Positions 47,212 through 64,000 of a DNA stretch of 64,000 nucleotides are shown here, in pieces. Every line of letters starts with the position of its first letter. The first letter of the stretch is position 1. The notes under the pieces are model-generated. The model searched no databases. It was not told where the DNA came from and saw only the letters and a program-made list of their open reading frames with translations. This DNA is from Gemmatimonadota bacterium (GTDB lineage Bacteria; Gemmatimonadota; Gemmatimonadetes; Longimicrobiales; Gaopeijiaceae), in contig JADFSR010000001.1 of assembly GCA_022560615.1 (NCBI GenBank), positions 124,001 to 188,000 of the forward strand, in the 5' to 3' direction. A program made the translations under genes and the position numbers.

Positions 47212-48029
47212 TGTCCTATGCCGCTGGAGTGGATGTCGGATCCACGCAGACCAAGGCAGTCGTGATCGACGAAGCGCAGGCCATCATCGGACGCGCGCTC
47301 CTACCCACAGGCGCCAACGTCGTGCAGGTCGCAGAGCATGCCTTTCAGGAAGCCCTGGCTTCCGGCGGCGTTCACGAAGAGGACGTGGGTTTCGTGATCG
47401 GTACGGGGTACGGTCGCTATCGCGTGGAGTTCGGTGACGCGCAGATCACCGAAATCGTCTGCCATGCCCGGGGAGCCGCACACATGTTCCCCGAGACCGA
47501 GACGGTGCTCGACATGGGAGGCCAGGACACGAAGGCGATCCGCATCCAGAAGGGTGGCGACGTGATCGACTTCTGCATGAACGACAAGTGCGCGGCCGGC
47601 ACTGGACGATTCCTGCAGTCGGCTGCCGCCGCGCTCGAGCTCGAACTCGATGATCTCGGACCCATGACACTCCGGGGCCAGCGGCCCGTGAAGATCAGTA
47701 CCACATGCACCGTTTTCGCGGAGTCCGAGGTGCTCTCATGGCTCGCGCGCGGCAAGAAAATGGAGGACATCCTGCTCGGCGTGCATCGCTCGATCTCGTC
47801 ACGTTCGATCGCGCTGCTACGCCGCGTCGGCATTGAAGGCGAAATCACGTTCACAGGCGGGGTGACCAAGAACGAAGCCATGGTCGCCGTGCTCGAAGAT
47901 ATGCTCCACACGCGACTGAACGTGAGCGACGAATCGCACTTCATCGGAGCGCTGGGGGCCGCGCTTCTCGCGCTGGAGCGGCTCGAGGCTGCTCAGGTTG
48001 ACGCTCTCACCGGGGAGGTCGTCACTTGA
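47211..48029 (+). CDS. bcrA: Benzoyl-CoA reductase activator/ATPase subunit (BcrA/BzdP type)
   Basis: A 272-residue ASKHA-fold ATPase of the BadFG/BcrAD family. [16 protein letters not shown] is the phosphate-1 motif, [14 protein letters not shown] the phosphate-2 motif, and [13 protein letters not shown] and [14 protein letters not shown] hold the two Cys that share one [4Fe-4S] with the sister subunit. It hydrolyses ATP to drive low-potential electrons into BcrBC. At 272 residues it is much shorter than Thauera BcrA and closer in size to the Azoarcus BzdP/BzdQ type. Confidence 0.92.
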
Positions 48030-48823
48030 AGTACTACGCTGGGATCGATGTCGGATCGACCTACACGAAGGCGGTGTTGATCGGGGAGTCCGGGGGGCTG
48101 GCAGCAACCGGGATTCTCGCGACAGGCTTCAAGCTCGACGATGCGGCTCGGGCTGCGTTGCAGCTCGCGCTGGAGGAAGCCGGAGGCAGGCGCAGTGACG
48201 TACGATTCGTCGCGAGCACCGGGTACGGGCGCACCCAGGTCTCGTTTCGAGACGTGCAGGCGACCGACCTCACCGCGCAGGCGTGGGGCACGCGCTACCT
48301 CTTCGCACGTACGCGCACTGTACTCGACGTGGGCGGTCAGACCATGAAGGCGATCCGGCTGGACGACAGGGGGCGGGTCCGCTCCTTCCGGCTGAACGAC
48401 AAGTGCGCGGCGGGGACCGGCGCCTTTCTCGAAAAGACGGCCCACTACCTCGGATACAGCATCGAGGAGATCGGCCCGCTCGTGGAGTATGCGAAGCATC
48501 CAGTCCCGATCTCCGGCGTGTGTGCGGTCTTCGCCGAGTCGGAGGTGATCAACCACTTGAGCAACGGTGTCCAGCCTGCCGACATCATGCACGGTGCGAT
48601 GGAGTCCCTCGTCGAACGCTCGGTTCGGCTCATGAAGCGTGTGCAGATGGAGCCGCAGTTCACGCTGGTAGGCGGCATCATGCGCTTCTCGACTATGGTG
48701 CGCGTCATGGAGGAGCGGCTGGGAGATCAGGTCAACGTACCCTCCGAGAGGCTGGTGCAGTTCACCGGAGCCCTTGGAGCGGCCATCCTGGCGCAGCGCC
48801 GTTCGGAGAAGCTGGCGGCATGA
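48026..48823 (+). CDS. bcrD: Benzoyl-CoA reductase activator/ATPase subunit (BcrD/BzdQ type)
   Basis: A 265-residue second ATPase subunit. The same motifs recur as [46 protein letters not shown] and [14 protein letters not shown]. It would dimerise with BcrA through the shared cluster. It starts four bases inside bcrA and overlaps the next small gene by four bases. The gene order C-B-A-D matches known class I clusters. Confidence 0.92.
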
Positions 48824-54536: not shown

Positions 54537-55931
54537 TCAATCGCTGTCCGGCCTCTCCAGAGCCAATTCGTGCTTGTCCGCCCGATACCGGAACGTGTCT
54601 CGACTCATCCCCAACAGGCGCGCCGCGCCAGACTTGTTGCCGCCGGTACGTTCGAGGGCCTGACGGATCAGATCACGCTCCACCGCATCGAGGTCCACCC
54701 CCTCCGCGGGCAGAACGAACACCCCCGACTCTTCGGCTCCAGCGGCACCGGTCCCTCGGATCTCCGGTGGAAGACTGGCGACTTCGATGGTCTCACCGTC
54801 CTCAAGCAGCAGAATACGCTCCAGGACGTTGCGTAGTTGCCGCGAGTTTCCCGGCCAGGCATGAGACTCCAGGGCACGCAGCGCATCCGGGACCAGCAGT
54901 CGGGTTTCCAGCCGCATCTCGGTGCAGAGAGTATCGATGAAATGCAGGGCGAGCGGCGCGATGTCCTCGGGACGATCGCGAAGCGGTGGGATTTCGATCG
55001 GGATCACGTTCAGGCGGTAGAAGAGATCTTCCCGAAAGTCGCCGTCCGCCACCGCTTGCTCGAGGTCACGATTGGTCGCGGTGATCACGTGCACGTCGAT
55101 CTCGATGTCTTTCACCCCACCCACACGCCGTAGCTTATGGTTTTCCAATACTTGCAGGAGCTTGGCTTGCGCCGCCTTCGGCATGTCCCCGATCTCGTCG
55201 AGAAAGAGCGTGCCCCCAGTCGCCAGTTCGAACAGACCGGTCTTTGCCTCCCGGGCATCGGTGAAGGCACCCGCCTCGTGGCCGAACAGCTCGCTCTCCA
55301 CGAGGGCCTCGGGGAGCGCCGTGCAGTTCACGTTGATAAAAGGCCGGTCCCGGCGTGGTCCGCGGGCATGGATCGCACGCGCGATCACATCCTTGCCCGT
55401 ACCACTCTCCCCGCGAATGAGTACGTTCGCGGGACTCCCGCGGAGCGCGAGGCGCGTGATGAGCTCGACGACCCTGCGCATCGCGAACGAACGGCCGACC
55501 AACGTGACGTCCCGGAAGCGCCACGCGCTGCCCTCGCGGTATCGTCCGACTTCGCCGGCCAGCCGGTACTTTTCAAGCGCTTGATCGATGAGAAGCAACA
55601 GTTCCGGTAGCTCGATCGGCTTCTCGAGAAAGTGGTAGGCGCCGGCCCGGACCGCCTTCACCGCGACTTCGACCTCGCCGTAGGCACTCATCATGATGAC
55701 CGAAATCGTCGGATCCAGCTCACGAATCTTCGTGAGCACGTCGAGTCCCGAGCCATCGGGCAGACGCAGATCCAGCAGGACCAAGTCCGCCCGGTCACTG
55801 ACCAGGCCCTCGAGCAGATCCGTGCCCTGTTCATACGTCCGTACCTCGAACCCCTCGTCCTCGAGGTGCTCTTCCAGCCAAAGGCGGATGAGCATCTCAT
55901 CGTCGCAAACCGCGATCGCTGCTCGACTCAT
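54537..55931 (-). CDS. Sigma-54-dependent response regulator (NtrC family)
   Basis: A 464-residue activator. The receiver domain has its phospho-acceptor Asp in LVLLDLRLPDG. The AAA+ module has Walker A GESGTGKD and GGTLFLDEIGDMP. The sigma-54-contact loop reads HEAGAFTDA, where the usual motif is GAFTGA. A Fis-type helix-turn-helix (GGNKSGAARLLGMSRDTFRYRADKH) ends it. The ATG at 55931 overlaps the kinase stop by four bases. A sigma-54 promoter 2 kb away (58012) is a candidate target. Confidence 0.93.
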   Translation of the reverse strand: MSRAAIAVCDDEMLIRLWLEEHLEDEGFEVRTYEQGTDLLEGLVSDRADLVLLDLRLPDGSGLDVLTKIRELDPTISVIMMSAYGEVEVAVKAVRAGAYHFLEKPIELPELLLLIDQALEKYRLAGEVGRYREGSAWRFRDVTLVGRSFAMRRVVELITRLALRGSPANVLIRGESGTGKDVIARAIHARGPRRDRPFINVNCTALPEALVESELFGHEAGAFTDAREAKTGLFELATGGTLFLDEIGDMPKAAQAKLLQVLENHKLRRVGGVKDIEIDVHVITATNRDLEQAVADGDFREDLFYRLNVIPIEIPPLRDRPEDIAPLALHFIDTLCTEMRLETRLLVPDALRALESHAWPGNSRQLRNVLERILLLEDGETIEVASLPPEIRGTGAAGAEESGVFVLPAEGVDLDAVERDLIRQALERTGGNKSGAARLLGMSRDTFRYRADKHELALERPDSD

Positions 55932-57733
55932 GAGGGCACCTCCGCCGACCGGGCGTCGAGAGGCAGTACGATCGTGAAGCAACTTCCCTCGCCGACGGTG
56001 GAGTCGACGTCGATCCGGCCCTGGTGCTGTTCGGCGATCCCTCTCGTGATCGACAGGCCCAGACCGGTGCCGCTGTGTCGCGTCGTATAGAACGGCTTGA
56101 AGAGCGCTGCTAGGTTCTTCTGCTCAATGCCGGGGCCCCGGTCTGCCACGCGAATTCCCAACTCGCCGCTGGACACGAAGGTCTGCACGTCGATGGGGCT
56201 GCCTTCGCCAGAGAACTGGATGGCGTTGAGGACCAGATTGACGACGGCCTGGCCGAGCAGCTCGGCATCCGCCCACACGTGCGGGAGGTCCTGCCCGAGA
56301 TCTACGCGAATCGGGATTCCACTCTTCCGCGCCCCCGCCTCCACGAGCGCGAGCGCCCTCCTCACGACCTCGTTCACGTCGGTCGACTCCAGCTTCGGCT
56401 CCCTGGGGCGCGCGAACGCCAAGAGGTCGCGAACGGCGCGCTCGATCCGGTGAAGCTGACGCTTCATCTCCGTGGTGATCGGCGTGAGATCCGGCTGGTC
56501 TTCCACGTGTCTGAGTACCAGGTCGAGTCCGTTCGAGATTCCCACGACGGGGTTCTTGATCTCGTGTGCGATGCCGCTGGCCAGCTCTCCGACCGTTGCC
56601 AACTGCTCGGCGCGCTCGATCTCTCTCCGGTGGAGTCGTTGGATCCTCTCCTGGTTTGCCGCCAATTCCGTGGCCATCTGATTGAAGGCCTCGCTCAGTT
56701 CGCCGATCTCGTCTCCGCCTCCCTCGGGAACCCGTACCGCCAGGTCACCGTCCGCAAGTTTGCGCGTTGCGGCGAGGAGCCTGCGGACTGGCGCCGCGAT
56801 CCCACCCGCCAGACCCCAGCCCGCCAGCACCACCATCAGCGAAAACACCCCACCGAGCACCCACGAGAGACTTCGGAGACCACGAAGCTCGCCCAGTGCA
56901 TCCGCCTCGGGGACCTCGGTGACGAAGAGCCAGGAGTAACGAGGCAGGGCGGCCGACGCCCCAATGACGTCGACGCCCCCTCTGTCGATGTAACGATCCG
57001 TGCGCCCGGGTGGCGCGCCGACGAGGGGGCTGTCCAGCGGGCGGTCATACCGGAGAGGACCATGGGGATGCGAGACGAATACAGGGAGTCCCCGATCATC
57101 GACGATAAACGACTCGATCGCGCCCGCGACGTGCTCGGGGATGTCCAGAAACCCCTCCCCGCGGCCGAGCAGCACTGTGCCCGCGAGATAAGCCGCAGTC
57201 GCACCACCGGCGTCCGTGACCGGAACGACGAACCTCAGCATGGGCGGGGAGTCCGGCCCGGTGGAAACCAGCCCGAACGGCGCGGCTCCATGGGGAGACC
57301 ACTGCTCGACGGGATGCCCAGCACTCGATGAGGCGTACGCCACTCCATCCGGCTCGAACAGCGCAAATGCGTCGAAGTGCCCGGATTCCTCGAGCTTGCG
57401 CTGCAGGTATTCGGTCGTCGCCTCAGGGCTGGCGGCTGTGCTCATGCCGGGATTGGCAGCGGACGTGGCGCGCTCCGCCGCGGCCTGGAGGAAGCGGTTG
57501 CCGCTCGCGACGGCCTCCAGATAAAGACGCTGCTGCTCGATCCGCTCCTGAACATGCGACGCCTGGAGGTCCGCGACGCCGGCCACGTACCGTTCGACCA
57601 GGCCTCCCACAATGTCCCGCGAGCGAAGGAAGCCCATGGCGTTCGATCCGAACAACGGCACCAGGGAAACCGCCAGGAAGGCCGCGAGAAGCCGCCTCCT
57701 GAGCACACCTTCTCTCGCAGGTACGTTCTTCAT
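55928..57733 (-). CDS. Membrane sensor histidine kinase
   Basis: A 601-residue kinase. A transmembrane helix at about 15-32 precedes a periplasmic domain of about 250 residues that looks like a Cache fold. A second helix (VLGGVFSLMVVLAGWGLAG) leads into a HAMP domain, then HisKA with ELASGIAHEIKNPVVGISNG, and an ATPase domain with NLVLNAIQF (N-box), VADRGPGIEQ (G1) and GTGLGLSI (G2). It forms a two-component system with the sigma-54 activator it overlaps. Its signal is unknown; copper is suggested only by the neighbours. Confidence 0.93.
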   Translation of the reverse strand: MKNVPAREGVLRRRLLAAFLAVSLVPLFGSNAMGFLRSRDIVGGLVERYVAGVADLQASHVQERIEQQRLYLEAVASGNRFLQAAAERATSAANPGMSTAASPEATTEYLQRKLEESGHFDAFALFEPDGVAYASSSAGHPVEQWSPHGAAPFGLVSTGPDSPPMLRFVVPVTDAGGATAAYLAGTVLLGRGEGFLDIPEHVAGAIESFIVDDRGLPVFVSHPHGPLRYDRPLDSPLVGAPPGRTDRYIDRGGVDVIGASAALPRYSWLFVTEVPEADALGELRGLRSLSWVLGGVFSLMVVLAGWGLAGGIAAPVRRLLAATRKLADGDLAVRVPEGGGDEIGELSEAFNQMATELAANQERIQRLHRREIERAEQLATVGELASGIAHEIKNPVVGISNGLDLVLRHVEDQPDLTPITTEMKRQLHRIERAVRDLLAFARPREPKLESTDVNEVVRRALALVEAGARKSGIPIRVDLGQDLPHVWADAELLGQAVVNLVLNAIQFSGEGSPIDVQTFVSSGELGIRVADRGPGIEQKNLAALFKPFYTTRHSGTGLGLSITRGIAEQHQGRIDVDSTVGEGSCFTIVLPLDARSAEVPS

Positions 57734-58011
57734 CCGTGCGCAAAGTCGTTCTGGGAGCCCGTATCAACGAATCCGAGTATGCGTCCGAGCCCACGCAAGC
57801 ACTGGGCCGAGCGCCCCGGGTTGTCCTCTTGTCCTTCTCCCTCCAGGAGGATCAAGCTCTGGACCGTATATCATAGTGGGTTAAATCACCCTACGCCATC
57901 CGGAATTGACTCGGTAGTTGGGGCAAATGGCCCGCCATGGCGCTCTATCTGGGAGCGTCATATCCTCCTAAGACGGTAGACAACAACAGGTTAGGGGCTA
58001 TACCCACGCCC

Positions 58012-58025
58012 GGCACGCAGGTTGC
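58012..58025 (+). promoter_or_regulatory. Sigma-54 (-24/-12) promoter upstream of the cupredoxin gene
   Basis: The sequence GGCACGCAGGTTGC has GG and GC dinucleotides separated by ten bases and closely matches the RpoN consensus (TGGCACG, N4, TTGC). The cupredoxin start codon is 56 bases downstream. The divergent operon encodes a sigma-54 activator, so a regulatory link is likely. The rest of the 348-base divergent region shows no gene. Confidence 0.8.
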
Positions 58026-58038
58026 ACCTCTCGAAGGC

Positions 58039-58056
58039 GTCACTGATTTGAGTGAC
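58039..58056. promoter_or_regulatory. Inverted repeat in the leader of the cupredoxin gene
   Basis: GTCACT and AGTGAC flank a six-base spacer, starting about 13 bases after the -12 element, close to the expected transcription start. It could be an operator or a leader hairpin. Confidence 0.4.
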
Positions 58057-58081
58057 ACCACTCGAGAAAGGGAACCGCACG

Positions 58082-58495
58082 ATGACTCGCATGATCGCCC
58101 TCGCCGTAACCTTGGTACTCGTGGCCTGGGCCCCACCCGGACAGAAGGAAGCACCCGACGTCGGGGACGACCCGCCCCGGGTGATCACGGTCCAGATGGT
58201 GGACAAGGGAAGCACGCAGTGGCGCTTCGAGCCCTCGGAGATCCAGGTGCGCCTCGGAGACGTGGTGCGCTTCGTACAAGCCGACGTCGCTCCCCACAAC
58301 GTGCAATTCAAGGACGTCCCCGCGGACGCCCAACTGGGCGTCGCGATCATGGGTCCGTTCTTGATCCAGAAGGGCGATGTCTACGAAGTGGAAATAGACG
58401 AGCGCTTCGTGCCAGGACTCTACAAGTACGTGTGCACGCCACACGAGCCCTTGGGGATGGTGGCGCAAATCGAAGTCGTTCCGGGCGACCGGTAA
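58082..58495 (+). CDS. Plastocyanin/azurin-like cupredoxin
   Basis: A 137-residue exported blue copper protein. A signal peptide ends near VAWAPPG. Copper ligands are in VAPHNVQF (His) and YKYVCTPHEPLGM (Cys, His, Met). It is probably a periplasmic electron carrier or copper buffer. The ATG at 58082 has AAAGGGAA upstream and a sigma-54 promoter ahead of it. Its 3' end is duplicated downstream around an insertion-element remnant. Confidence 0.85.
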   Translation: MTRMIALAVTLVLVAWAPPGQKEAPDVGDDPPRVITVQMVDKGSTQWRFEPSEIQVRLGDVVRFVQADVAPHNVQFKDVPADAQLGVAIMGPFLIQKGDVYEVEIDERFVPGLYKYVCTPHEPLGMVAQIEVVPGDR

Positions 58496-58537
58496 TCACA
58501 TAGGAGACCAGAGATGATGACAACGTTCAGAAGGGGG
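58445..58537 (+). repeat. Imperfect direct repeat, copy 1 (cupredoxin 3' end plus next-gene 5' end)
   Basis: Ninety-three bases covering the last codons of the cupredoxin gene, the spacer with its ribosome site and the first codons of an MMTTFRRG reading frame. It matches copy 2 at about 10 differences and one gap. Confidence 0.85.
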
Positions 58538-58690
58538 ATTCCGCTCCATTCCGGCCAGCTATTCCGACTGATTCCGGTCACCTATTCCGACCGATTCCGG
58601 CCACCCGTTCTGACACAGAGGTTCTCCATGCGCAAGATCAAGCCCCTGGCCATGGTGGCACAAATCAAAGTCGTTCCGGGCGACCGGTAA
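58514..58690 (+). pseudogene. Chimeric 58-codon ORF made of two gene ends and an IS terminus
   Basis: It begins MMTTFRRG, matching the start of the lipoprotein at 58708. It then runs through the insertion-element end and finishes PLAMVAQIKVVPGDR, nearly identical to the cupredoxin C-terminus. It is the product of rearrangement and is unlikely to be functional. Confidence 0.7.
58538..58639 (+). mobile_element. Remnant terminus of an IS21-like element with the start of istA
   Basis: The segment has three tandem imperfect copies of a 23-base unit (ATTCCGGCCAGCTATTCCGACTG and variants), like the multiple terminal repeats of IS21-family elements. They are followed by GTTCTGACAC and then by ATGCGCAAGATC (MRKI) at 58628, the usual opening of IstA transposase. 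Nothing else of istA or istB follows. The family call is by pattern from memory. Confidence 0.6.
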
Positions 58691-58731
58691 CCCATAGGAG
58701 ACTAGAGATGACGACAACGTTCAGAAGGGGG
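58640..58731 (+). repeat. Imperfect direct repeat, copy 2
   Basis: Ninety-two bases matching copy 1 across the same gene junction. This copy leads into the intact lipoprotein gene at 58708, whereas copy 1 ends at the IS remnant. Confidence 0.85.
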
Positions 58732-59457
58732 CTGCCAGTCCTGGCCCTGCTGACGGGGGCCGCATGCGTGGACAATCCCGTCCTCGCCCCCCACGACGAT
58801 CACGGGGAGGAGCTCGACGTCGCGCTGACTTTCTCCGAGCAGCATCTGGCGACGCTGACCGAGCTCGAGATCGAGGTCGAGATTACGGGTCACGACGGGG
58901 CATCAGACACCGATTTCATGGCCGTCGCCGTCGAGTTCAAGCTCGAGGGTGAGGAGATTTGGGTGGCGCGAGAGCTGGAGCTCCACGGCAGCCACTTCAG
59001 CGCCGAACACACGTTCTACTCGAGTGGCGAGTACGAGGCACGGGTCGTGGCGCAGCGGCACGGTGCGGACCACTCCGAGACCATCTTCGAGCGAGACGGC
59101 CACCTCGAGGTCGAGCGCATCCACAAGGAGGTGGGCGAGTTTCGGATCGAGATGGAGACTTTCCCTGGCCACCTACACGAGGGTGTCGAGGCGGAGGTGA
59201 AGTTCTGGATTCTGGAGGCCTCGGACGGACACGGGAGCGGTCACTCGATTGGCGGGTTGACCGCGGACATCCACCTCTCGCACATCGATAGTGGCGATTC
59301 CATGTCCCATCGCGCCGAGGAGCACACGACCGGTGTGTACGAGGCGCACCACGTGTTCGCCGAACATGGGGAAAACGAGGTTATGATCGAGTTCGAGGAT
59401 GAGCACGGTGCACACCACACAGCCGCGTTCCGTGTCCATGTCGACGACAGCCACTAG
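58708..59457 (+). CDS. Histidine-rich lipoprotein, YtkA/FixH-like beta-sandwich
   Basis: A 249-residue protein with AGGAG upstream and a lipobox near TGAACVDN (Cys20). The mature protein is very rich in His, Glu and Asp, with two repeats of a beta-sandwich domain of roughly 90-100 residues (VALTFSEQHLATLTELEIEVEITGHDGASDTDFMAV and FRIEMETFPGHLHEGVEAEVKFWILEASDGHGSG). The pattern resembles YtkA-like domains. The many His suggest metal binding, consistent with copper neighbours. It is transcribed with the porin 11 bases downstream. Confidence 0.75.
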   Translation: MTTTFRRGLPVLALLTGAACVDNPVLAPHDDHGEELDVALTFSEQHLATLTELEIEVEITGHDGASDTDFMAVAVEFKLEGEEIWVARELELHGSHFSAEHTFYSSGEYEARVVAQRHGADHSETIFERDGHLEVERIHKEVGEFRIEMETFPGHLHEGVEAEVKFWILEASDGHGSGHSIGGLTADIHLSHIDSGDSMSHRAEEHTTGVYEAHHVFAEHGENEVMIEFEDEHGAHHTAAFRVHVDDSH

Positions 59458-59468
59458 AGGAGGCGACC

Positions 59469-60608
59469 ATGCGATTCCAGACGATTCGAGTGGCGATCCT
59501 GGCCGCGTGTCTCAGCGGCCTGCCATTCACTTCTCTCGCGGGACAGGGTCAGAGCATCTTCGTCCTGAGCGGATACGGAGACGCTACGTACGAAGCGGCC
59601 GCGACCAGCGACTACCCCAACGATTTCTCAGCTTCCGTGAGCCCCATCTTTCTGTACACGATGGGCGGGAACATCCTCTTCGAGGCCGAACTGGAGTTCG
59701 GGCTCTCGGGGGCTGCTACGACCACCGGGCTCGGGTACGCCCAGATCGATTACCTCGGCTTCGAGAGCGTGCAGATCATCGCCGGTAAGTTCCTGCTGCC
59801 GTTCGGGATCTTCGGCGAACGCCAGCACCCCACGTGGATCAACAAGTTGCCCACGGCACCGGTGCTGTACGGGCACGCGCATGGCGGCGTCGCCGAGGGT
59901 GCGCTCCTCCCCATCATGTCGGACGCCGGAGTGATGATGCGGTGGGCAAAGCCCTTCGCCTCGAAGTGGGCGCTCGACTTCTCGGCTTACGTGACACAAG
60001 GCCCACGGATCGCGACCGAGGAAGCGGCCGGAGACGACGGGCACGATGATGTTCACGCCTCCCCCCAGGTCTCACTCCTTTCATCGGAGCCGGAACACGG
60101 CGACGCGGTTCCGGCACCGCCCGTGGCCTTTGGCACGTCGTTCGCCGACAACAACAAGAACAAGATGCTCGGGGCGCGCATCGGACTGGTTAAAGGTCCG
60201 TCGTTCGAGGTGTACGCGTCCGGCTTCCACGCGATGTACGACGAAGGGAACTTCCTCGACTTCAAGGGCGGGGCGCTCTCCCTGGAGTGGAGGCGGGGCG
60301 GATTCGAGTTCCGAACCGAAGGCGTCATCACGCGTCAGGAATTCGAGGGCGATGATCACTTCGAGACCCTGAACCGCGGGGGATTCTACGCGCAGGCGTC
60401 GAAGAAGGTCGGCCAGTGGGAGCCGGTCGTCCGGTGGGGTCGGTTGGTGGACAGCACCGTGGACGGCGTCGAGGTGATCGAGGGCCACAACGAAGTGGCC
60501 TTCGGCTTGAACTTTTGGCTCGAACCCACCGTGCCGGTGAAGTTCGCGTACGAGTTCCACCAGGGTCGCGACGACCGCCTGTACATCCAGTGGGCGTACG
60601 GATTCTAA
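59469..60608 (+). CDS. Outer-membrane porin-like protein
   Basis: A 379-residue protein with a strong ribosome site (GAGGAGG) and a signal peptide ending SLAGQ. The mature chain has repeated amphipathic strands (QSIFVLSGYGDATYEAAATS, FEAELEFGLSGAATTTGLGYAQIDY, FEFRTEGVITRQEFEGD) and ends LYIQWAYGF with a terminal F, as in outer-membrane barrels. The IIAGKFLLPFGIFGERQHPTWINKLP block recalls carboxylate or phosphate-selective porins. A loop near residue 200 is rich in Asp and His. It may pass metal or substrate for the cluster. Confidence 0.8.
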   Translation: MRFQTIRVAILAACLSGLPFTSLAGQGQSIFVLSGYGDATYEAAATSDYPNDFSASVSPIFLYTMGGNILFEAELEFGLSGAATTTGLGYAQIDYLGFESVQIIAGKFLLPFGIFGERQHPTWINKLPTAPVLYGHAHGGVAEGALLPIMSDAGVMMRWAKPFASKWALDFSAYVTQGPRIATEEAAGDDGHDDVHASPQVSLLSSEPEHGDAVPAPPVAFGTSFADNNKNKMLGARIGLVKGPSFEVYASGFHAMYDEGNFLDFKGGALSLEWRRGGFEFRTEGVITRQEFEGDDHFETLNRGGFYAQASKKVGQWEPVVRWGRLVDSTVDGVEVIEGHNEVAFGLNFWLEPTVPVKFAYEFHQGRDDRLYIQWAYGF

Positions 60609-60628
60609 AGCAAACGGAGAACAGAACG

Positions 60629-61045
60629 ATGACGAAGAGAGCATTCGCGTGGGCTGCCGCGCTGGTCTTGCTCCTGCCGGTCTCCGCGGAGGCCCAGCAG
60701 GATCCGGCGAAGATCGGTGAGGGAGCCCTGGTCTACGCGGCAAACTGTTCGCGCTGCCATAGCCCGCGATCCGGGACCGAGCGTACCGACGACGAGTGGG
60801 TGGCGATCATCGCCCACATGAGGGCACGGGGGAACCTGACCAAGAGCCAGGCCGGCGCCGTGCTGGCGTTTCTTCAGGCGACCAACCTGCCGGAAGGAGG
60901 AGCGCCGCGGGGGACGGCGTCCGCGTCGGTCATTCCAACGAACTCAGTGATGCCGTTGGAGCTTCGAGCACTCCTGATGCGCTGGCAAGCGTCCCAGGCT
61001 ACGAAGAAGCCGGCTTCGCCGATCGGGAGTGGCCCGGGACGCTAG
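60629..61045 (+). CDS. Small c-type cytochrome
   Basis: A 138-residue exported protein (signal ending VSAEAQ) with one heme c site, CSRCH, near residue 40 and an axial Met candidate in MRARGNLT or SVMPLEL. It is a periplasmic electron carrier. It lies 20 bases after the porin gene, completing a cupredoxin-lipoprotein-porin-cytochrome unit. Confidence 0.85.
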   Translation: MTKRAFAWAAALVLLLPVSAEAQQDPAKIGEGALVYAANCSRCHSPRSGTERTDDEWVAIIAHMRARGNLTKSQAGAVLAFLQATNLPEGGAPRGTASASVIPTNSVMPLELRALLMRWQASQATKKPASPIGSGPGR

Positions 61046-61060
61046 AGCCGGGACGGACGT

Positions 61061-61459
61061 TCACCGGATCGCGGCGGCCACCCGGGTCAGCCGCTGCTTC
61101 GCCTCCTTGGCGACCTCCTGCATCGCCGGCAGCTCGCCGAACGACGCCTGCCCCATGATCAGAGCGGGGTCGATGAATCGAACCAACGACGACGACGGGC
61201 CGGCTTCTTCCACGGTGACGTTGCAGGGAAGGAAGAGACCCACCTCCGGACTCGCGTTGAGAGCCTTGAACGCGAGCGCCGGATTGCAGGCACCGAGAAT
61301 CGTGTACTTCCGGAATGACACACCGAGCTTCTCGGCGAAGGCATCGTGAAGGTCGGCTCGTGTTAGCACGCCGAAGCCCTCTGCCATCAGTGCGTCGGTG
61401 ACACGGTCCAGCGCCTCCGCATAGGGAAGCGAAAGCTCGACGAAAACGGAATCGCCCAT
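61061..61459 (-). CDS. DUF302-family protein
   Basis: A 132-residue protein starting at the ATG at 61459 with CGGAGG upstream. It has the DUF302 layout: VELSLPYAEALDRVTDALMAEGFGVLTRADLHDAF, ILGACNPALAFKALNASPEVGLFLPCNVTVEE, and SLVRFIDPALIMG. DUF302 proteins are often beside copper and sulfur genes; the function is unknown. It follows cusA on the same strand by 48 bases. Confidence 0.85.
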   Translation of the reverse strand: MGDSVFVELSLPYAEALDRVTDALMAEGFGVLTRADLHDAFAEKLGVSFRKYTILGACNPALAFKALNASPEVGLFLPCNVTVEEAGPSSSLVRFIDPALIMGQASFGELPAMQEVAKEAKQRLTRVAAAIR

Positions 61460-61507
61460 GGAAACCTCCGTAGTTGGGATGTGACCGGCGACGCTTCGCA
61501 CCCTGTG

Positions 61508-64000
61508 CTAATCGGCACCCGAAGGCAACGGCTCAAGAGTCACGAGCTCGCGCGACGACGCGCGGGCCTCCGCTCGGAGCACGGCCTCCTGCCAAAGTGA
61601 GTAGATCGCTGGAATCACGAGGAGGGTCAGGACCGTGGCCGAAATCATGCCACCGACCATCGGCGCCGCAATTCGGCGCATGACGGTCGCTCCGGCGCCG
61701 TGGCCCCAGAATATCGGCAGCAGACCGCCCACGATCGCCGTGACCGTCATGATGATGGGACGGACGCGGAGCACCGCCCCCTGCATGATGGCTTCCCGCA
61801 GGGAGGCGACGCTCGGCTCCCTCCGCTTGTGTTCGCGCCATGCATTGCCGAGGTAGAGCAGCATGATCACCCCGATCTCCGCCGCGACACCGTTGAGAGC
61901 GATGAAGCCCACTCCCGTGGCAACGGACCAGTTGAAGCCGAGGACGGCCAGAATCAGCACGCCGCCCACGAGGCTGAACGGGAGAGTGAGCATCACGATC
62001 AGCGTCTCGCCCAAGGCCCCGAAGTTGATGTAGAGGAGGAGGAAGATGATGAGCAGTGTCGCCGGGACCACGACCTTCAGCTTCTCCTGGGCCCGCTGCA
62101 TGTACTCGTATTGCCCGGACCAGGTGAGCGTGTAGCCCGGCGGGAGCTCCACCATCTGGGACACCACCTCCTGAGCGGCCGCGACGTAGGAGCCCAGGTC
62201 GCTCTGCTCGACGTCCACGAATACCCACGCCGTGGGGACCGCCTGTTCGGTTTTCACCACCATGGGGCCATCCACGATGCGGATCTCAGCGACCTGCCCG
62301 AGTGGGATCTGCGCGACCCCCATGGCACTACTCCCGCCCATCGAGGCGGTCGGCGCCATCCCGTCGATCCCGGCCATCGTGGCCGGTGTGACCATGTCAT
62401 CCATGCCGGTGCTCCGGGATCCGACCGGAATCAGAATCTCCGCCAGCTTCTCGGGCTGGTCCCGAAGCTCCTGGGGATAGCGCACGCGCACGGAGTAGCG
62501 CTCTCTCCCCTCGACCGTCCGCGTGATGCTCATGCCACCCACCGCCGATGCGATCACCATCTGAATCGTCGCGACGCTGATCCCGTATCGGGCCGCCGCG
62601 TCGCGATCGATGTCGATGTCCAGATACGACCCGGAAACGACCCGCTCTCCGACGGCCGACCGAGTGCCCGGAACGGTCCGCACCGCCGCCTCCACCTCGG
62701 TCGCGAGTCTCTCGAGCACGGCCAGCTCCGGACCGAAGATCTTCACGCCCACCGGGGTTCGGATTCCGGTCGCGAGCATGTCGATGCGTCCCTTGATGGG
62801 CATCGTCCAGGAATTGGTCACACCGGCCATGCGAAGCTCGGCGTCCATCTCCTCGATCAGCGTCTCCTGCGTCATCCCCGGGCGCCATTCCTCCTCTGGC
62901 TTCAGCACGATGGTCGTCTCGATCATCGAGAGGGGAGCTGGATCCGTGGCCGTCGTGGCTCGGCCGGCCTTGCCGAAAACGCTCTCGACTTCGGGGAACG
63001 TCGCGAGAATCGAGTCTTGAACCCGCAGTATGTCTTGGACCTTCGCAACGCTGACCCCGGGAAGGGTGGTCGGCATGAAGAGGATGGTGCCTTCGTTGAG
63101 GGGCGGCATGAACTCCGAACCCAGGCGACGAAGCGGTAATACCGTCAGCACGAGCACCGCCACCGCCACCGCGATGACCGGCCAGCGGTAGTTGAGCACG
63201 GTCTCCAGAATCGGACGGTACAGCGACATGAGGACCCGGTTGACCGGATTCTTGTGCTCCCTATGGATCCGTCCCTGGATGAACAGCCCCATCGTCACGG
63301 GAACCAGGGTCAGGGAGAGCAAGCTCGCACTCGCCATCGCGAGCGTCTTGGTCCACGCCAGCGGCTTGAAGAGTCGACCTTCCTGGGCCTCCAGGCTGAA
63401 GACGGGGAGGAACGACACGGTGATGATGAGCAGGGAGAAGAAGAGCGCAGGACCCACTTCCTTGGAGGACCGCACGACCACCTCCCAGCGCTCCTTCGAC
63501 GTCAACAACCGGGTGTGGAGGTAATCTCCTCCTTCATCGCCGGGAATCGAGACGCCCAGCTCCTTCGCTCGTCGTCGCTTCTCGTCGATGGCGCGCTCCA
63601 GGTGCTTGTGCATGTTCTCGACCATCACGATCGCGGCGTCGATCATCGCACCGATGGCGATGGCGATACCACCGAGGCTCATGATGTCGGCTCCCAGGCC
63701 GAGCCCGCGCATCGCGATGAACGCCATCAGGATGCCGAGAGGCAGCGTGAGGATCACGACGAGCGCGCTGCGCACGTGGACCAGGAAGATCACGGTGACC
63801 AGCGCCACCACGAGCGACTCCTCGAGGAGCTTTTCCTTGAGGGTGTCGACGGCCCTGTGGATCAGATCCGAGCGGTCGTACACCGGCCTGATGACCAGCC
63901 CTTCCGGGAATCCCGACTCGATCGCCGCGAGCTTGGCCTTCACGCGGTCGATCGTGGCCAGCGCGTTCTCACCGTAGCGCATGATGACGATACCGCCAAC
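61508..64000 (-). CDS. cusA: CusA/CzcA-type heavy-metal RND efflux pump, N-terminal part outside the window
   Basis: The frame is open to the window end; 830 residues are present, so roughly the first 200 are missing. GGIAIAIGAMIDAAIVMVENMHKHLE is the proton-relay membrane helix of heavy-metal RND pumps, and RIDMLATGIRTPVGVKIFG matches the CusA periplasmic block that holds a copper-binding Met. A Met-rich insert (about 62320-62412) sits between GSRSTG and IPLGQVAEIRI. It would export Cu(I) or Ag(I) with a CusB/CusC pair expected upstream, to the right of the window. Confidence 0.92.
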   Translation of the reverse strand, partial: VGGIVIMRYGENALATIDRVKAKLAAIESGFPEGLVIRPVYDRSDLIHRAVDTLKEKLLEESLVVALVTVIFLVHVRSALVVILTLPLGILMAFIAMRGLGLGADIMSLGGIAIAIGAMIDAAIVMVENMHKHLERAIDEKRRRAKELGVSIPGDEGGDYLHTRLLTSKERWEVVVRSSKEVGPALFFSLLIITVSFLPVFSLEAQEGRLFKPLAWTKTLAMASASLLSLTLVPVTMGLFIQGRIHREHKNPVNRVLMSLYRPILETVLNYRWPVIAVAVAVLVLTVLPLRRLGSEFMPPLNEGTILFMPTTLPGVSVAKVQDILRVQDSILATFPEVESVFGKAGRATTATDPAPLSMIETTIVLKPEEEWRPGMTQETLIEEMDAELRMAGVTNSWTMPIKGRIDMLATGIRTPVGVKIFGPELAVLERLATEVEAAVRTVPGTRSAVGERVVSGSYLDIDIDRDAAARYGISVATIQMVIASAVGGMSITRTVEGRERYSVRVRYPQELRDQPEKLAEILIPVGSRSTGMDDMVTPATMAGIDGMAPTASMGGSSAMGVAQIPLGQVAEIRIVDGPMVVKTEQAVPTAWVFVDVEQSDLGSYVAAAQEVVSQMVELPPGYTLTWSGQYEYMQRAQEKLKVVVPATLLIIFLLLYINFGALGETLIVMLTLPFSLVGGVLILAVLGFNWSVATGVGFIALNGVAAEIGVIMLLYLGNAWREHKRREPSVASLREAIMQGAVLRVRPIIMTVTAIVGGLLPIFWGHGAGATVMRRIAAPMVGGMISATVLTLLVIPAIYSLWQEAVLRAEARASSRELVTLEPLPSGAD

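Follow-up and report, generated by a model that had tools for sequence, protein, structure and literature searches.

A relic of an IS21-family left end between two copies of a cupredoxin-lipoprotein gene junction in a Gemmatimonadota bacterium

Insertion sequences of the IS21 family encode IstA and IstB, carry multiple repeats with 23-bp spacing at their ends as well as TG...CA tips, and make a target duplication of ~5 bp. One published account describes IS21 ends as having multiple direct repeats 23 bp apart and a terminal CA dinucleotide, and IS21 insertions as bordered by 5-bp direct repeats (PMC10122671).

The locus described here also resembles the products of homology-facilitated illegitimate recombination and of template-switch insertion: a short foreign segment lies between duplicated host DNA, and the relic junctions have minimal homology. 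Template-switch insertion in bacteria is a known idea. Unlike in those systems, the process here is deduced from structure only, and the copies are already ~10% diverged. A search of the literature on similar cases found nothing close.

We analyzed a 64-kb stretch of DNA (64,000 nucleotides; the window). We found that the junction between a cupredoxin gene and a lipoprotein-like gene occurs twice (Table 1), in copies of 92 and 91 nt that differ at 9 positions (8 substitutions and 1 single-base indel). The first half of copy 1 is the final 50 bases of the cupredoxin gene. The cupredoxin gene ends normally in copy 1, and the lipoprotein gene starts normally in copy 2. When the whole window was scanned for direct repeats (minimum length 45 nt, distance up to 5 kb), the junction pair was the top repeat and supplied two of the three families found. 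An assembly artefact is an unlikely source of the doubling, given the number of positions at which the copies differ. The remaining family is a 47-nt direct repeat (47222-47268 and 48037-48083; 77% identity, 815-bp spacing) that could be related genes or domain copies.

The cupredoxin matches Pfam PF00127 with E=1.8e-15 on a longer reading of the gene (58052-58492); the start in Table 1 is our choice. The lipoprotein-like protein had no Pfam or NCBIfam match, and its name is the label given in an earlier sequence-only reading of this DNA. The surrounding region (54537-63982) resembles a metal-handling cluster. It contains, on the minus strand, an NtrC-type response regulator, a sensor kinase and a CusA/CzcA family RND transporter (811.8 bits vs a cut-off of 701.45), together with the cupredoxin, the lipoprotein, the outer-membrane-like protein and a weak cytochrome c match.

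Table 1. Features of the doubled junction and its neighbours (window coordinates)
Feature	Position	Strand	Basis
Cupredoxin gene, intact, plastocyanin/azurin type	58082..58495	+	ORF; Pfam PF00127
Junction copy 1: 3' end of cupredoxin, Shine-Dalgarno between the genes, first lipoprotein-copy codons	58446..58537	+	Repeat and alignment
Chimeric ORF of 58 codons, joining lipoprotein start, IS end, istA start and cupredoxin end	58514..58690	+	ORF listing
IS21-family left-end repeats, three, 23-bp spacing, TGCRN tip absent	58538..58610	+	L042 match, 88% over 65 nt
istA codons R F S M R K I K	58617..58642	+	24/26 identical to L092 istA start; istA-start alignment
Junction copy 2: remnant of the cupredoxin 3' end, Shine-Dalgarno, true lipoprotein start	58641..58731	+	Repeat and alignment
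Lipoprotein-like gene, intact	58708..59457	+	ORF; homologues in G019, G007, G042
Outer-membrane-like protein gene, conserved neighbour	59469..60608	+	Name inferred, no family match

The spacer between the two junction copies is 103 bases long (58538-58640) and consists of IS sequence except for ~6 bases. It contains about 2.5-3 copies of a 23-bp tandem repeat of the ATTCCGGCCAC type; the three repeats are spaced by 23 and 23 bp, as are the multiple terminal direct repeats of IS21 elements. After the tandem repeat the spacer reads AGAGGTTCTCCATGCGCAAGATCAAG, with an istA-like start, ATGCGCAAGATCAAG, at 58628 and AGAGGTTCTCC just before it. The last two bases of this stretch, which are also the final two of the istA codons, are common to the right junction and copy 2. 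As in the IS21 family, the istA N-terminal codons follow the left-end repeats in the correct order and orientation. The spacer retains nothing of a second cupredoxin body. These measurements agree with the sequence-only reading, which had described a doubled junction with about 10 differences in 93 bases and a separation of 102 bases holding three 23-base tandem repeats and the first codons of an istA-like gene.

The spacer and the first bases of copy 2 (58538-58645) resemble the ends of IS21-type elements. The best match to the repeats was L042, a contig of 3.1 kb from a deltaproteobacterial MAG. It has an IstA-type ORF (515 aa) and an IstB-type ORF (246 aa), and it carries the same repeats, inverted relative to each other, at its two ends. 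The best match found to the istA start (AGAGGTTGTCCATGCGTAAGATCAAG) was in L092, an IS21 element with the target duplication CTCAGC in a genome of the window's own family (G023); its IstA is an IS21 family transposase by NCBIfam NF033546 (291 bits vs a cut-off of 160). We know of no element that matches both parts of the relic. A second element from the same family, L064 (G220), has istA and istB, tips TGCGGATTCCG and TGCGCATTCCG, and the target duplication GGGGA; its ends and those of L063 also match the window repeats. Scans of viral contigs gave 4 loci with the repeat pattern, which added nothing, and no loci with the istA-start pattern.

We compared both parts of the spacer, the repeats and the istA start, with eight IS21 left ends. 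In 500 dinucleotide shuffles the observed score was never reached, a control that is partly circular, since the insert itself supplied the queries that found seven of the eight left ends. Against the independent comparator L072, which was found by its IstB, the istA part scored 27 (shuffle maximum 26) and the repeat part scored 26 (shuffle maximum 30), the latter not above chance.

The chimeric 58-codon ORF noted in the sequence-only reading is present. When the insert was shuffled at the same length, 2932 of 5000 shuffles kept the frame open, and therefore the ORF needs no function. It had no match in a Pfam search. We rejected a functional 58-aa peptide on the basis of the shuffles, and we judge the ORF fortuitous and easily a product of chance. 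It is very improbable that the 23-bp repeats are regulatory or coding and resemble IS21 by chance. The frame open across 58 codons would fit a coding role, but the same shuffles count against it, as do the dinucleotide shuffles against a chance likeness. We found no promoter-like site in 57800-59500, which speaks against regulatory repeats; for the same reason (no sigma-70-like site, though the host's promoters may differ) we rejected a promoter supplied by the IS end. Above all, this reading is contradicted by complete elements that share the same ends plus istA.

Because complete IS21 elements with matching ends or a matching istA start exist, the IS21 identity stands, and we are highly confident that the spacer is a relic of this family. 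The sequence-only reading, which had called it an IS21-like terminus, took the lack of any IS with such ends as the finding that would speak against it; L042, L064 and L092 are complete or near-complete. With only ~8 istA codons left and no istB, the spacer is derived from the IS21 family and is not itself an element. Unlike members of the family, it has no tip, leader, istB or right end and lacks most of istA, and it is not mobile.

No other copies of the IS end were found in the organism's own draft genome (105 contigs), and neither was a template for the fragment. We therefore rejected a small mobile derivative (MITE). The complete IS with these exact ends, which the sequence-only reading proposed to look for, was not found in this draft genome. 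Only L072 is present there, a diverged IS21-type element on contig C97 (260-2872) with tips TGCGTATTCCG at both ends, no matching target duplication, and a frameshifted istA that is spread over two frames.

The left junction lacks a clean transposon terminus. The target duplications of L064 and L092 fix the element tip consensus as TGCRNATTCCG, and the pattern common to the elements, TGC[AG]NATTCC[GA], was found in 11 loci. (Of the four elements with both tips and both flanks, L064, L072, L091 and L092, two show a target duplication and two none.) At the locus, AGAAGGGGG directly abuts ATTCCG; TGCRN is absent, there is no match to TGCRNATTCCG anywhere in the window, and the relic does not have the terminal TG (CA). 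The distance from the tip to the ATGCG of istA was 179-275 in all eight elements measured (for L062, L067 and L050 the search pattern gave no distance within 400 bp) and would be 95 in the window. Thus about 84-180 bp of leader between the repeats and istA has been lost, unless the parent's leader was unusually short. The missing tip and missing leader speak against simple transposition. GGGGG is present in both junction copies, within the 92-bp repeat, and the right end is absent from the relic.

We found a single junction in all three relatives that have the syntenic trio of cupredoxin, lipoprotein and outer-membrane-like protein genes in the same order (G019, G007 and G042), the comparison that the sequence-only reading had suggested. 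The lipoprotein occurs (E<=1e-12) in only 5 of 121 genomes of the family, including the window's own, which makes the distribution of the trio sporadic. G001, a genome of the same genus, does not have the lipoprotein. Weaker lipoprotein matches in G330, G030, G123 and G320 (L080-L083; that in G030 partial only) had no adjacent cupredoxin hit and were left out of the single-junction count. Since the trio relatives have one junction, the 195-bp unit with the doubled junction is most simply taken as a derived state that arose in the lineage of the window.

These results bear on the history proposed in the sequence-only reading: tandem duplication of the cupredoxin-lipoprotein unit, insertion of IS21 into the first lipoprotein copy, and then deletions, the main one starting at istA codon 5 and reaching almost to the end of the second cupredoxin, and small ones affecting the tip and leader. 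That history explains the direction of the IS, the position of its end within the first lipoprotein copy, and divergence before the IS arrived. GGGGG could be a target of 5 bp, in which case loss of TGCGG (5 bp) would give the observed left junction, and IS remnants commonly decay through multiple deletions. However, it takes at least five events (the duplication, the insertion and at least three deletions), none of the three trio relatives has two units, the second cupredoxin and first lipoprotein have left no remnant beyond the duplicated 92 bp, and the tip is missing. We consider this history unlikely. Its order of duplication, insertion and deletion was not established, given the missing tip and leader, the lack of unit remnants and an alternative with fewer steps.

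The divergence between the junction copies bears on another possibility. With a single outgroup of ~73% identity (G019), most of the differences that can be polarized are in the half of a copy that is redundant: the cupredoxin end in copy 2 has changed from GGG to GCC, and the lipoprotein start in copy 1 differs at TCACAT and the second ATG. Differences at 58451 and 58509 point the opposite way, and the rest cannot be polarized. Nine differences in 92 bp imply that the event is old or that the copies come from different alleles. Two diverged alleles could have been mixed by homology-facilitated illegitimate recombination, in which DNA of a related strain, with an IS relic beside the junction, was joined by homology at the lipoprotein end and illegitimately at the opposite end, or by recombination between two IS copies that had inserted in different alleles at sites 92 bp apart. 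Mixing of alleles would best explain the ~10% divergence, and one-sided integration of this kind is described in work on homology-facilitated illegitimate recombination (PMC3240628). On the other side, the donor allele was not found among the other 120 genomes of the family, where lipoprotein relatives (three near-full-length and the partial one in G030) are far more diverged, with 31-60% protein identity. We regard allele mixing as rather unlikely.

We favour, with about even confidence in the whole history, a single illegitimate repair or template-switch event that made both the duplication and the IS21 fragment and was followed by drift. DNA synthesis would have left the lipoprotein gene after AGAAGGGGG, at about codon 8-9, would then have copied the left end of an IS21 located elsewhere, a sequence that was already degraded, and would have returned to a point 92 bp upstream, within the 3' end of the cupredoxin gene. 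The duplicated junction would leave both genes complete with their own ribosome-binding sites, so that the scar could be tolerated and the redundant halves could drift. The single-copy ancestral site that is expected of a one-step insertion is what all three trio relatives have, and a single event is the fewest steps for insertion plus duplication. The bases shared at each junction are at most two, not beyond chance. A one-step event within the genome needs a close repeat to have persisted for a long time, and deletion of the leader adds a step in every model. We infer the one-step origin, the source of the template and the neutrality of the scar; the order of events is not proven, and the weights given to the three histories are our judgement and were not computed.

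The observation is real, IS21-derived and ordinary in kind, and its history is uncertain. The relic looks like an ordinary IS scar, old and harmless, a further example of IS decay that leaves views of IS21 and of the cupredoxin locus unchanged. An IS relic can sit between genes and leave them unbroken, here because the boundary between the genes was copied as well. It is a tentative possibility that IS21 ends were captured as filler by template switching, with ~92 bp of target duplicated and both flanking genes left intact. If true, short IS relics would have a way into operons that does not require transposition.
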